A DNA stretch of 64,000 bases from Glutamicibacter arilaitensis Re117 (GTDB lineage: Bacteria; Actinomycetota; Actinomycetes; Actinomycetales; Micrococcaceae): assembly GCF_000197735.1 (NCBI RefSeq), contig NC_014550.1, positions 124,001 through 188,000 on the forward strand, written 5' to 3'. Below are positions 11,643 to 15,107 of this stretch, one piece after another. The stretch's first letter is position 1; every line of letters starts with the position of its first letter. A program made the position numbers and the translations under genes. Below the pieces are notes generated by a model. The model was not told the DNA's origin. It did no database searches and saw only the letters and a list, made by a program, of their open reading frames with translations.

Positions 11643-13247
11643 TCAAACCGGATTCGGGTAGGTCTTCGCCAAGGTCCCGCGAGGGCCGACTTCCAGCAAA
11701 TAGTCCAGATCCAGCTGCGCTAGGAAATGCTGATCGTGGCTGACTACCAGCAACGCTCCCTTATAGGTGCCCAGTGCTTCACTGAGCTGGCGCACGCTGT
11801 CCATATCCAGATTATTGGTGGGCTCATCGAGGATGAGCAACTGCGCGGCTGGTTCTGCCAGCAGCAGCGTCGCCAGATAGACCCGGAAACGCTCGCCGCC
11901 GGAAAGCACCGCCAATGGCCGGTCGGCGCTGTCACCGCGCAGCAGCAACCGGGCAAGCATCTTGCGCACGTCGTTCGCGGTTGCCGCTGGCGCCACCGAT
12001 GCCACGTTCTGCATGGCGCTCAGTTCCCCATCCAGGCCGTCCAGGCGCTGGGGCAGATACCCAACCCGGTCAAGGAAGAGCTGTCCGCCCAGTCCGGGGC
12101 CGGGAGCTTCGCCCGCGAGCATCTGCTTGAGCAGAGTGGTTTTCCCGGAACCGTTGGGGCCGACAAGGCCCACGCGTTCGGGTCCCTGGATGATGAACTG
12201 GTGATCCGCTGGACCCAGCGCCGCGACCTGCTTGCCCGAGGGCAGCCGCGGATCGGGCAACTCGATGTTGATGTGCTCGGCCTGCCGAACCCGCTGATCA
12301 GCATCATCGAGCCGGGCCTGTGCCGAATCGACCTTGCCATCCAGGTTGGAACGCATCTTCCCGGCGTTTGCCTCGGATTTCTGGCGAAGGTGGTTGGCCA
12401 GGATCTTCGGCATGCCTCCGGAAAGCTGGGTGGCCCGCCCCTTGCGCTTGGCCCGCGCCAACTTCGTTTCGGCTTCTACCCGTTGGCGCTTTTCCACTTT
12501 CAGGGAGGCCTGGGCAGTTCTGGCTGCCTGCTCGGCCGCCTGCTGCTCGGTTTCAAGCTGCTCGCGGTAAGCGCTGTAGGGCCCTCCGAAAACGCTGAGC
12601 TTCCCGCCGTAAAGCTCCACCGTATGCTCCATGAGCTCGAGCAGCTCGATATCGTGGCTCACCACAACCAGCGTGCCCTTCCAGGCACGTACAAGGTCGT
12701 AGAGCAATTCACGGGCAGGGCGATCGAGGTTATTCGTCGGCTCGTCGAGCAGGGTGATGGGCGAATCGGCGATGCGCAAGCCGAGCACTGCCAGCAGCAT
12801 TGCTTCCCCGCCCGATAGCGTGGCTACCTTGCGGCCCAGATCCAGCCCGTCGAAGCCCAGCGGCGCCAGTTCAGCTCGAACCCGGGCTTCGGCATCCCAG
12901 CTCGCGCCCACCGCATCGAGATCCGCTGGGTCGACACTGCCGGACTCGATAGCTTCCAAAGCCGCCAGGACCCGATGCACCCCCAGCAGCTGGGCGACGG
13001 TCGTGTCCTGTTCCAAAGCCAGCGTTTGCGGAAGGTAGCTCAGCGGCGCGCTCGTTTCTGCCGTTCCGCTGGTTGGGTGCAGCTGCCCGGCGATCAGCTT
13101 GAGCAGCGTCGATTTGCCGCTCCCGTTGGCGCCGATCAACCCCGTCCGTCCGGATGGAAACGTACCGTCCAGATTGGCCAGGGCGCGTTCTCCCGAGGGC
13201 CAGGCGAAGCTGAGGTTATTCAGGGTAATTGGTGGTGTCAAAGACAT
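11643..13247 (-). CDS. ABC-F family ATPase (ribosome-associated; possible antibiotic-resistance type)
   Basis: A 534-residue soluble protein with two ABC ATPase domains and no membrane domain. The first domain has Walker A GANGSGKST (about residue 38) with a signature LSGGE, and the second GPNGSGKTT (about 366) with LSGGERF and LLILDEPTNNLDMDS. A basic, coiled-coil linker of about 80 residues (around 240-320, rich in Arg/Lys/Gln/Ala) separates them, as in ABC-F proteins that enter the ribosomal E site. The SD GGGAGG lies 8 bases before the ATG. The upstream leader holds a promoter and a likely regulatory peptide, which supports drug-inducible control. It could instead be a housekeeping ABC-F. 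Confidence 0.88.
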   Translation of the reverse strand: MSLTPPITLNNLSFAWPSGERALANLDGTFPSGRTGLIGANGSGKSTLLKLIAGQLHPTSGTAETSAPLSYLPQTLALEQDTTVAQLLGVHRVLAALEAIESGSVDPADLDAVGASWDAEARVRAELAPLGFDGLDLGRKVATLSGGEAMLLAVLGLRIADSPITLLDEPTNNLDRPARELLYDLVRAWKGTLVVVSHDIELLELMEHTVELYGGKLSVFGGPYSAYREQLETEQQAAEQAARTAQASLKVEKRQRVEAETKLARAKRKGRATQLSGGMPKILANHLRQKSEANAGKMRSNLDGKVDSAQARLDDADQRVRQAEHINIELPDPRLPSGKQVAALGPADHQFIIQGPERVGLVGPNGSGKTTLLKQMLAGEAPGPGLGGQLFLDRVGYLPQRLDGLDGELSAMQNVASVAPAATANDVRKMLARLLLRGDSADRPLAVLSGGERFRVYLATLLLAEPAAQLLILDEPTNNLDMDSVRQLSEALGTYKGALLVVSHDQHFLAQLDLDYLLEVGPRGTLAKTYPNPV

Positions 13248-13396
13248 GCAGGTTCCTCCCGCAATTGCGAAGGGGCTGCCGGCTTGGGGGATCGCAGAAT
13301 TGGCTCAACCCCGCAGGGGAGCCGGAAAGGAAAAGGATACCGAAGCCGGTAGCCGAAATGAACAAGATGCACCGGTCGGAATCGGTGCGGGGTCAT
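13238..13396 (-). CDS. Predicted 52-residue leader peptide of the ABC-F gene
   Basis: A reading frame of 52 codons begins with ATG 13394-13396, about 24 nt into the predicted transcript, and ends 10 bases inside the ABC-F gene in another frame. Its first part, MTPHRFRPVHLVHFGYRLR, has two Arg-x-Arg motifs (R5-F-R7 and R17-L-R19, the latter followed by YP). Macrolide-stalled leaders such as ErmDL carry an RLR motif followed by FP. It has no strong SD. It is called from position, overlap and motif, not from homology. Confidence 0.45.
   Translation of the reverse strand: MTPHRFRPVHLVHFGYRLRYPFPFRLPCGVEPILRSPKPAAPSQLREEPACL
13302..13323 (-). promoter_or_regulatory. Leader hairpin upstream of ABC-F
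   Basis: GGCT(13302-13305)...CCCC-GCA-GGGG-AGCC (to 13323) can fold as a stem with a small bulge within the leader, and GCACCG/CGGTGC (13369-13388) forms another. These are candidate alternative structures for attenuation; no poly-U run follows, so translational control is as likely as transcriptional. Confidence 0.35.
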
Positions 13397-13426
13397 TGGC
13401 TGGCTCAGTAGGTATCCATGCCAACG

Positions 13427-13455
13427 AGTGTAGCAGGGGGGAATTGGGGTGTTAA
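13427..13455 (-). promoter_or_regulatory. Promoter of the ABC-F leader
   Basis: On the minus strand, TTAACA (13450-13455) and TACACT (13427-13432) are separated by exactly 17 bp. It lies just past the stop of the upstream CPBP gene and leaves about 170 nt of leader before the ABC-F start. Confidence 0.6.
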
Positions 13456-13460
13456 CCCCC

Positions 13461-14291
13461 TCAGTACAAGAAGACCGGGAGCCATTCCCGGTTGTGCGCG
13501 TGGACCAGCGCGAGGAACAGGACAAGGTCGAAGATCAGGTGCACGCCTACTACGTAGGACAGGGACTTCGTCAGCTTGAAGGTATACCCCTGCAGCAGGG
13601 CGAAGGGGAAGGTCAGCAATGGCCCCCAGGATTGGTAGCCGATCTCCCAAAGGAATGACGAGAAGATCACCGCTTGCAGGATGTTGGCCTGCCAGTCCGG
13701 GAAGTGCTGGCGCAGCAATGCGAATGCCGTGCAGATGAAGAACAGCTCGTCCCAGATGCCCACCGAATTAACTCCGAGGAAGAGCCGCCAGAAGATGGCT
13801 GGGTCCGAGGCGTCCGGCCAGTTCTGGTAGGCACCGGTGCTGATCAGGTACACCGGGAGGATGAAGAAGCCCAGGGCCACCACCCCCAGCAAGTACAGCT
13901 TCGCCGCCAGCGGCCACTTGCGGCCGGTATTCACCGGGAACTTGATGATCTGCTCGCGCAAGGCGAAGCGCGAGATCAGCCAGGGCAGCAGGACTGCCGC
14001 GGCCAGCGCGCCACCCATTAATGCCATATGCCCTAGGCTCAGGTCGGCATTCAATGGAACCAGGCTGATGACCACCAAACCGGTTGCGATGAGTCCCAGA
14101 TGCCGCGCAAGCCTGCGGTCGATGAACCCCGCGCACAGCAGGCTCAGCGCCAGCAGGCCGTAGCCCGCCGGGTCGTTGCCGACGCCGAAAAGCAGCACTG
14201 CGGAACCCGAGAGCAGGGAAGCCGGCAGCAGCTTCCAGCTCATCGCGGGGCGGTGCGATTCGGTTGGTATCTGCCTCACGGACACAAGCAT
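13461..14291 (-). CDS. CPBP-family intramembrane metalloprotease (Abi-like)
   Basis: A 276-residue protein with about eight membrane segments. The CPBP signature is recognisable but altered: WDELFF (about residue 187) stands where EExxxR-type motifs occur, followed by FSSFLWEIGYQSWG (about 218) and the His-containing VGVHLIFD (about 255). The family includes CAAX-type proteases; here the first Glu is Asp, so activity is uncertain. The start is not well supported by an SD; Met17 is an alternative. Confidence 0.7.
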   Translation of the reverse strand: MLVSVRQIPTESHRPAMSWKLLPASLLSGSAVLLFGVGNDPAGYGLLALSLLCAGFIDRRLARHLGLIATGLVVISLVPLNADLSLGHMALMGGALAAAVLLPWLISRFALREQIIKFPVNTGRKWPLAAKLYLLGVVALGFFILPVYLISTGAYQNWPDASDPAIFWRLFLGVNSVGIWDELFFICTAFALLRQHFPDWQANILQAVIFSSFLWEIGYQSWGPLLTFPFALLQGYTFKLTKSLSYVVGVHLIFDLVLFLALVHAHNREWLPVFLY

Positions 14292-14405
14292 GCCAGCTGG
14301 GCCGGCAGAAAGACACAGCCCGCCGCCGCGGAACCGGTGCTTTAAAGCTTCTGGCCCGCATCCGTCATTTCGGCTGCGGGCCAGAAGGAAAATTCTGGAG
14401 AAGTG

Positions 14406-15107
14406 CTACTTCCAGGCGCGGTGGACGGCGACGATGCCACCGGTCAGGTTGCGGTATTCCACGTTCTTCCAGCCAACGTTGACGAACTTGGCACCCAGCT
14501 CGTCCTGGTCTGGCCAAGCCGCAATGGATTCAGCCAAGTAGGCGTAAGCAGTCGGGTTAGGGGAAACCAGATAGCCCAGCGCAGGAATGGCGCGCGGCAA
14601 GAACTGCTTGTAGGCCGTCTTGATCGGGGCGACGGTCGGAGTGGAGAACTCGGCGACGACGATCCGTCCGCCGGGCTTGGCCACGCGGCGCATTTCGGAC
14701 AGGGCCTTCTCGGTATCCGCGATATTGCGCAGACCGTAGGAGATGGTCACTGCATCGAAGGTGTTGTCTTCGAACGGCAGGTCGGTTCCGTCTCCGTAGA
14801 CGAAGTTCAGCTGCGGGTAGCGCTTGCGCCCTTCATCCAGCATGCCGTGGGACATATCGCAGGCGGTGACGTCAGCGCCGGCTTCCGCGAGCGGGACCGA
14901 GGAGGTGCCGGTGCCTGCGGCGAGGTCGAGAATGCGCTCGCCGGGCTTTGGCGCGATCGCTTCGGTGGTGATCTTGCGCCAGTAGTTCACGATGCCGCCG
15001 GTCATCAAGGTATTGAGCAAGTCGTAGCGAGGAGCCAGCTTGTCAAACATTTCCTGAACCTGATCGGCCTTCTTATCCAGGCCTGCGCGCGCATTCTGAG
15101 AACTCAT
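14406..15107 (-). CDS. menG: Demethylmenaquinone methyltransferase
   Basis: A 233-residue class I SAM methyltransferase that makes the last step of menaquinone synthesis. The SAM-binding motif I is ILDLAAGTGTSS (about residues 61-72) and the family signature RYDLLNTLMTGG near residue 28 is present, with the late signature SYGLRNIADTEKAL at about 128-141. Length and motifs fit UbiE/MenG. It is monocistronic here. The ATG at 15107 is the start. Confidence 0.95.
   Translation of the reverse strand: MSSQNARAGLDKKADQVQEMFDKLAPRYDLLNTLMTGGIVNYWRKITTEAIAPKPGERILDLAAGTGTSSVPLAEAGADVTACDMSHGMLDEGRKRYPQLNFVYGDGTDLPFEDNTFDAVTISYGLRNIADTEKALSEMRRVAKPGGRIVVAEFSTPTVAPIKTAYKQFLPRAIPALGYLVSPNPTAYAYLAESIAAWPDQDELGAKFVNVGWKNVEYRNLTGGIVAVHRAWK

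Follow-up and report, generated by a model that had tools for sequence, protein, structure and literature searches.

The minus strand of the window, the whole 64,000-nucleotide stretch of DNA that was analysed, carries an ABC-F gene behind a structured leader, and the locus raises the question of what in this leader is read by the ribosome. A first-pass annotation of the sequence had proposed that a 52-codon frame with two Arg-x-Arg motifs stalls drug-bound ribosomes and thereby opens the ribosome-binding site of the gene. We compared the leader among genomes of the genus, modelled its folding, and set the results beside reports on related genes. The features concerned are as follows, in window coordinates.

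11643 to 13247, minus strand: gene for an ABC-F ATPase of 534 aa with two ABC domains (domain search, structure matches)
13427 to 13455, minus strand: predicted promoter TTAACA, 17 bp, TACACT, with TG before the -10 (promoter-like site search and leader rows)
13405 to 13419, minus strand: mini-ORF ATG GAT ACC TAC TGA, MDTY-stop (ORF list and 17 leaders)
13238 to 13396, minus strand: 52-codon frame with RFR and RLR (ORF list and 17 leaders)
13392 to 13417, minus strand: region 1, which overlaps the mini-ORF and forms the 5' arm of helix 1:2 (folding and alignment)
13369 to 13388, minus strand: P1 hairpin (GCACC...GGTGC), inside helix 1:2 (G-C / A-U compensatory changes)
13335 to 13363, minus strand: region 2, which serves helix 1:2 as its 3' arm and helix 2:3 as its 5' arm and codes for FGYRLRYP in the 52-codon frame
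13324 to 13334, minus strand: U-rich tract (TTTTCCTTTCC) immediately behind helix 1:2, with which it makes up a candidate intrinsic terminator (T counts in 16 leaders)
13302 to 13323, minus strand: hairpin P3 (GGCTCC...GAGCC), inside helix 2:3 when that helix is forced (folding and sequence)
13274 to 13293, minus strand: region 3, GATCCCCCAAGCCGGCAGCC, alternative partner of region 2 (pairing counts)
13255 to 13275, minus strand: hairpin holding the ABC-F Shine-Dalgarno sequence, GGGAGG at 13260-13255 (folding)

The ABC-F protein contains two ABC_tran stretches in one 534-aa chain, and solved ABC-F proteins, including 9nlh and 7nhl, were among its best structure matches. Its best NCBIfam model was NF000355, described as ribosomal protection-like, with 323.2 bits against a cutoff of 380. 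Given that this score is below the cutoff, we only infer the drug-protecting role, and the protein is referred to here as a likely ribosome-protection protein. An orthologue was detected by protein search in 17 of the 18 genus genomes at E <= 1e-60, with none at that threshold in G004. A DNA search matched 16 of the 18 genomes, 15 of them at this locus, and the matches in G002 were confined to the ABC coding sequence. The 17 leaders read were L001-L015, L041 (from G009) and L060 (from G002), with L001 being that of the window. L017 was excluded from the counts of 17 because no ABC-F gene follows it. This sequence (L017 1508-1720; G007:C16) is a partial tandem copy of the leader situated about 0.8 kb before an intact one; the next open frame, of 159 aa, begins at L017 1763, the early stop of the mini-ORF has been lost, and the -10 reads TACCCT.

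A covariance model of the leader core, applied with stricter filters to 395 genomes of the family, matched 16, all of this genus. No match was obtained under these filters in the other 31 genera or in the genus genomes G002 and G004. One further model match, L043 (28.9 bits), was judged to be due to chance, as none of the features of the leader were apparent on reading. In a tree constructed by a quick method, the 17 ABC-F proteins of the genus formed one supported group, which was adjoined by relatives from Leucobacter and Microbacterium. L061, L105, and L110, which lay on very long branches and are probably wrong-frame translations, were given no weight; L069, L081, L091, L098, and L103 were outside the tree set, and L071 was not used.

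The predicted promoter was present as the first-pass annotation had described it, with the -35 TTAACA at 13455-13450, the -10 TACACT at 13432-13427, and a spacer of 17 bp. A search of positions 13000-14500 for promoter-like sites yielded one, compared with a mean of 0.3 in shuffled sequences. The leader rows showed that the extended -10 is conserved: TGn precedes TAnnnT in all 17 leaders and the exact hexamer TACACT is present in 15, whereas the sequence upstream of the extended -10 diverges. The mini-ORF start lies 7 nt after TAnnnT in 15 of the 17 leaders, that of the window included, and 6 nt after it in the remaining two, and the bases that separate the two elements vary. With this spacing of 6 to 7 nt after the extended -10, the mRNA probably begins with the start codon, which lies no more than about 1 nt from the predicted transcription start, and the mini-ORF is thus probably leaderless. 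A CAAX-protease-like (Rce1-like) gene at positions 13461-14291 adjoins the promoter on its upstream side. What precedes the leader in L058 and L060 instead ends, as judged by eye, like the methyltransferase gene found at 14406-15107 of the window.

In the window, the ATG codons of the mini-ORF and the ABC-F gene lie 172 nt apart, in agreement with the leader of about 170 nt originally estimated. The mini-ORF, an aside in the first-pass annotation, proved to be the conserved reading frame and was present in all 17 of the 18 genomes searched that possess this ABC-F gene. Its start codon is ATG in 16 leaders and GTG in one, and its stop codon, for which TGA, TAA, and TAG are all used, falls at codon 5 to 9 in all 17. 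The encoded peptides vary (MDTY, MDTR, MDIR, MDLICA, MDIISA, MKTEIVTA), with no amino acid after the starting Met being common to all 17. The start, the stop, and the distance to the -10 are kept in L014, L015, and L060 despite divergence of the helix arms described below. That the peptide varies whereas the start and the early stop are fixed suggests initiation, rather than a peptide, as the signal read in the mini-ORF.

The leader of the window as a whole is strongly folded (z of -2.54; 1 of 200 shuffles equally stable), and five leaders folded singly yielded z values of -2.8 to -5.4. In the folding model, region 1 pairs with region 2 to form helix 1:2 around P1. In a structure alignment of 16 leaders, from which L060 (G002) and L017 were left out, 87.2% of cells for helix 1:2 and P1 were paired, compared with 31-39% when the model was slid, a control that is biased in favour of the helix because the model was derived from the fold of L003, itself one of the rows. 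Two-sided changes numbered 15 cells versus 5.3 in shuffled alignments (0 of 500 shuffles reached 15), and six pairs with a two-sided change were found versus 3.5 (29 of 500 shuffles as high), although the rows are related and kinship alone can push such counts above those of shuffles without structure. When L014 and L015 were folded singly, the mini-ORF strand still paired with region 2 around P1 despite their diverged arms. Duplex energies for helix 1:2 ranged from -19.0 to -25.2 and were matched by 0-20 of 500 shuffles in each of the 16 leaders.

The 10 bases immediately behind helix 1:2 include at least seven T residues in 14 of these 16 leaders, the tract being weak in L014 (4 T of 10) and L041 (3 T of 10). 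In 13 of the 16, this tract is the most T-rich 10-base segment of the leader or is tied for that position, and no such tract was apparent by eye in the G002 leader. Helix 1:2 together with the U-rich tract resembles, judging from sequence, a probable intrinsic terminator. No Rfam family was matched at gathering score in the leader, and three sub-threshold matches were judged to be due to chance.

Helix 1:2 and the alternative helix 2:3 are mutually exclusive, with region 2 being common to both. All 16 named pairs of helix 2:3 form in the window, and 88.2% of cells were paired across the 16 leaders, compared with 26-53% when slid. Two-sided changes were not above those of shuffles (3 vs 3.4; 368 of 500 as high), and the covariation score barely exceeded them (40 of 500 as high). 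Duplex energies ranged from -13.3 to -23.8 over the 16 leaders; in 13 of them, 2-17 of 500 shuffles were as good, and the helix was weaker in L011, L012, and L014 (43, 119, and 90 of 500 shuffles, respectively). With nucleotides 1-18 blocked, our reading of the minimum-energy folds showed helix 2:3 in 10 of 15 leaders, a set that did not include L015; it was absent from those of the window (L001), L002, L010, L011, and L012, and L006 adopted it even when unblocked. In the window with region 1 blocked, region 2 instead formed a local hairpin from the palindrome TACCGGCTTCGGTA, which also supplies the RLR codons. Given that region 3 is transcribed after the U-rich tract, helix 2:3 cannot be a classical antiterminator. 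We also considered a second terminator at P3 and rejected it, a T-run being present behind P3 in some leaders, L007, L009, and L010, and missing from others.

The 52-codon frame, on which the original proposal was centered, is present in the window as described: it extends from the ATG at 13396 to a stop ending at 13238, runs 10 bases into the ABC-F gene (start at 13247), and encodes both RFR and RLR, the latter followed by YP. In the macrolide-stalling leader peptide ErmDL, RLR is followed by FP. Codon-level conservation of the two motifs in relatives was not found for the first, RFR, which occurs only in the window (1 of 17 genomes), and was found in part for RLR. In 10 of 17 genomes, the frame from the ATG corresponding to 13396 is open as far as RLR; it fails as a result of ACG in L002, an early stop in L004, and a frameshift in L008, and L014, L041, L015, and L060 contain no in-frame start. 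If any in-frame ATG or GTG is accepted, RLR is reached without a stop in 13 of 17 genomes, with the RLR stretch and such an upstream codon being kept in all of L001-L013. A frame that could encode an R-x-R of the ErmDL type was found in 10 genomes (ATG) or 13 (ATG or GTG) rather than in all 17. The main reading is therefore not that of a conserved sensor made up of both R-x-R motifs, given the single occurrence of the first motif and the reach of the frame in 10 of 17.

The RLR-coding half of the frame nevertheless shows a bias. Among the 10 ATG-bearing leaders, the minimum number of changes in this half was 1 in 12 columns, 3 in 12, and 8 in 13 at codon positions 1, 2, and 3, respectively (p = 0.026 for the third-position bias, before correction for three frames and relatedness), with corresponding values of 4, 16, and 13 (20 columns each) for the whole comparable frame. 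Unpaired columns were spread evenly over the codon positions (6, 6, and 7), and the phase of pairing therefore does not explain the bias. The RLR-coding stretch is, however, an arm of two alternative helices, so that pairing alone could explain its conservation; the third-position bias is taken as evidence for a possible second role of RLR, beyond that of a helix arm. In L014, L041, and L015, region 2 encodes R-x-R[F/Y] (RCRFP, RQRYL), partly by different arginine codons and with no in-frame ATG, GTG, or TTG after +1, which may be either a remnant of coding or a coincidence produced by the pairing.

Several other explanations for the leader were weighed, two of which depend on exposure of the ABC-F Shine-Dalgarno sequence. 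It would be exposed if stalling at the mini-ORF exchanged helix 1:2 for helix 2:3 and thereby weakened the hairpin that covers it, a translational attenuation that we consider unlikely. Region 3 does end inside this hairpin, and induction of cplR depends on stalling at its uORF rather than on termination, according to the available part of PMC10201436. The probability that the Shine-Dalgarno sequence is unpaired was higher with helix 2:3 forced than with helix 1:2 forced in 9 of the 16 leaders of the forced-pair set, most so in the window (0.18 to 0.36) and L003 (0.18 to 0.45), but it was lower in the other 7 (L005, L006, L007, L008, L009, L011, and L013), and the mean values were 0.13 for helix 1:2 and 0.15 for helix 2:3. 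The Shine-Dalgarno sequence was thus mostly paired in both modelled states, and opening of the ribosome-binding site through helix 2:3 was on average unsupported by folding either with region 1 blocked or with pairs forced. Translational attenuation would also leave the U-rich tract unexplained. Given that the Shine-Dalgarno sequence is mostly masked in both states, a terminator at the U-rich tract would explain the anatomy of the leader better, though not decisively, than would opening of the ribosome-binding site.

The same lack of a rise in mean Shine-Dalgarno accessibility bears on the model, derived from the first-pass annotation, that macrolide-bound ribosomes stall at R-x-R, within a frame beginning at the 13396 ATG or a nearer GTG, and open the ABC-F ribosome-binding site. 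Such stalling is quite improbable. It would account for the resemblance of RLR-YP to ErmDL as quoted in that annotation, for the retention of RLR with some upstream in-frame ATG or GTG in L001-L013, and for the third-position bias, and R-x-R is also encoded in L014, L041, and L015, though without an in-frame start. The frame from the 13396 ATG, however, misses RLR in 7 of 17 genomes, RLR becomes RLA in G002, the end of the frame varies (in L009 it runs into the ABC-F frame), and no Shine-Dalgarno sequence was seen by eye before the 13396 ATG. Erythromycin was moreover without effect on the are5sc and tiaA uORFs in the available text of PMC12421871. That the leader is some other conserved structured RNA, such as a protein-binding leader or riboswitch-like element, with a mini-ORF that is incidental to the helix sequence, is very improbable. 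Helix 1:2 alone would indeed fix much of the mini-ORF sequence, but the retention of the start, stop, and -10 distance where the arms diverge and the lack of an Rfam family at gathering score both speak against this explanation.

The explanation that we favor, with confidence somewhat better than even, is that the leader of this likely ribosome-protection gene attenuates its transcription under the control of the ribosome, starting from the mini-ORF. Transcription would begin at or beside the ATG of this four-codon ORF, and for this reason the ribosome would initiate on the 5' end of the transcript without a Shine-Dalgarno sequence. In the absence of drug, the ribosome would finish at codon 5 and leave, the mini-ORF strand would pair with region 2, and the U-rich tract behind helix 1:2 would end transcription near +95. 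A drug that blocks formation of the first peptide bonds would hold the ribosome on the start codon. A ribosome in this position would cover about the first 16 nucleotides. Helix 1:2 could then not close and RNA polymerase would read on. The freed region 2 would pair with region 3, as in the majority of the leaders modelled, or, as in the window, fold locally into a small hairpin. Attenuation would thus most likely be relieved when a ribosome stalls on the start codon, a mode that has been proposed for are5sc of Streptomyces.

A more specific version, which we put forward tentatively as falling somewhat short of an even chance, is that of an antibiotic-responsive leaderless attenuator in which the start codon serves both as landing site and as part of the 5' arm of the terminator, and in which region 2 may add an RLR signal of macrolide type. 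Given this double function of the start codon, a ribosome caught there by a peptidyl-transferase drug would directly block termination. Overall, the leader is most likely a known kind of ribosome-mediated attenuator in a leaderless form; the comparison establishes its conservation and base pairing, from which we infer the mechanism and the class of drug. The general idea of the first-pass annotation, drug-responsive control of ABC-F by the ribosome through a leader ORF, thus agrees with the conservation and RNA structure found here and with what is reported for related genes, whereas stalling at R-x-R gained little from the comparison of genomes and opening of the ribosome-binding site was not seen in folding. 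The suggestive R-x-R peptide is read differently as a result, in that its coding stretch sits on a base-paired arm.

Relatives were surveyed for uORFs at 59 loci (L072-L130) of 80, with L131-L151 being outside the survey. The uORF MLV-stop was found in 9 of 13 Streptomyces loci, and xGDDDISG-stop in six loci (four of Micromonospora and one each of Paractinoplanes and Pseudonocardia), with near variants of the latter in six further loci. Leaderless-looking uORFs in other genera read MELIEVDIRA in Leucobacter (L074), MEIEVDRN in Microbacterium (L075), and MEIEVDRL in G414; a match of this kind was obtained at 7 of the 59 loci, some of them surely by chance. A second, more distant ABC-F gene in G017 (L070; G017:C17:63335-64894) is preceded by a short frame, MLIVSDYSLVIHALT, noted by eye.

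Among known systems, are5sc and tiaA are Streptomyces ABC-F genes with uORF attenuators, as described in the available part of PMC12421871. The present locus resembles them in its related ABC-F gene, the protein of the window being 46-47% identical to Streptomyces homologues that carry MLV-stop uORFs, as well as in its very short uORF and in the alternative terminator and antiterminator folds predicted for both. The same text describes 5' UTRs of 194 and 232 bp with ribosome binding sites for the uORFs, and a transcription reporter for tiaA that was constitutive. The Streptomyces MLV-stop uORFs follow a Shine-Dalgarno-like site, whereas the transcript of the window is predicted to start with the uORF start codon; in contrast to what is described for are5sc and tiaA, the uORF also provides one arm of the helix that precedes the U-rich tract.

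Short uORFs also precede other ABC-F genes in the accessible portion of PMC10201436: MRI for cplR, MIN for vmlR, MK[L/Q] for vmlR2, and MAGN for lsaA, all of them 3-4 codons in length, as here. In the cplR leader, a 5' hairpin covers the uORF and the terminator has a poly-U run, features that are predicted here too, but termination there would take place at a different, 3' hairpin, which contains the Shine-Dalgarno sequence, whereas here the U-rich tract follows the uORF-bearing 5' helix; in cplR, stalling was essential and termination was not. The ABC-F gene lmrC of Streptomyces lincolnensis (ARE5 subfamily) is likewise actinobacterial, and the portion of PMC8546547 available describes for it the ribosome-mediated transcription attenuation that is predicted here. 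Translation of the lmrC uORF is reported there to be necessary for terminator formation, which differs from our proposal, and that portion describes no leaderless ORF.

A search of the titles and abstract openings of open-licence literature found no description of an antibiotic-sensing leaderless attenuator, and the predicted leaderless start is the new element relative to the known uORF attenuators of ABC-F genes. Leaderless initiation is common in mycobacteria, as stated in the part of PMC4633059 available, and leaderless short ORFs with Cys codons act there as cysteine attenuators (Canestrari et al. 2020, as described in the available part of PMC9031893 and cited also in that of PMC13236596). 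The mini-ORF resembles these mycobacterial ORFs in being a short ORF that is predicted here to be leaderless and to control the downstream gene, but differs from them in that they sense cysteine through Cys codons, whereas the 17 peptides share no residue after Met. If our proposal is correct, this locus joins antibiotic-induced attenuation of ABC-F genes, as in Streptomyces, with leaderless initiation, as in mycobacteria.
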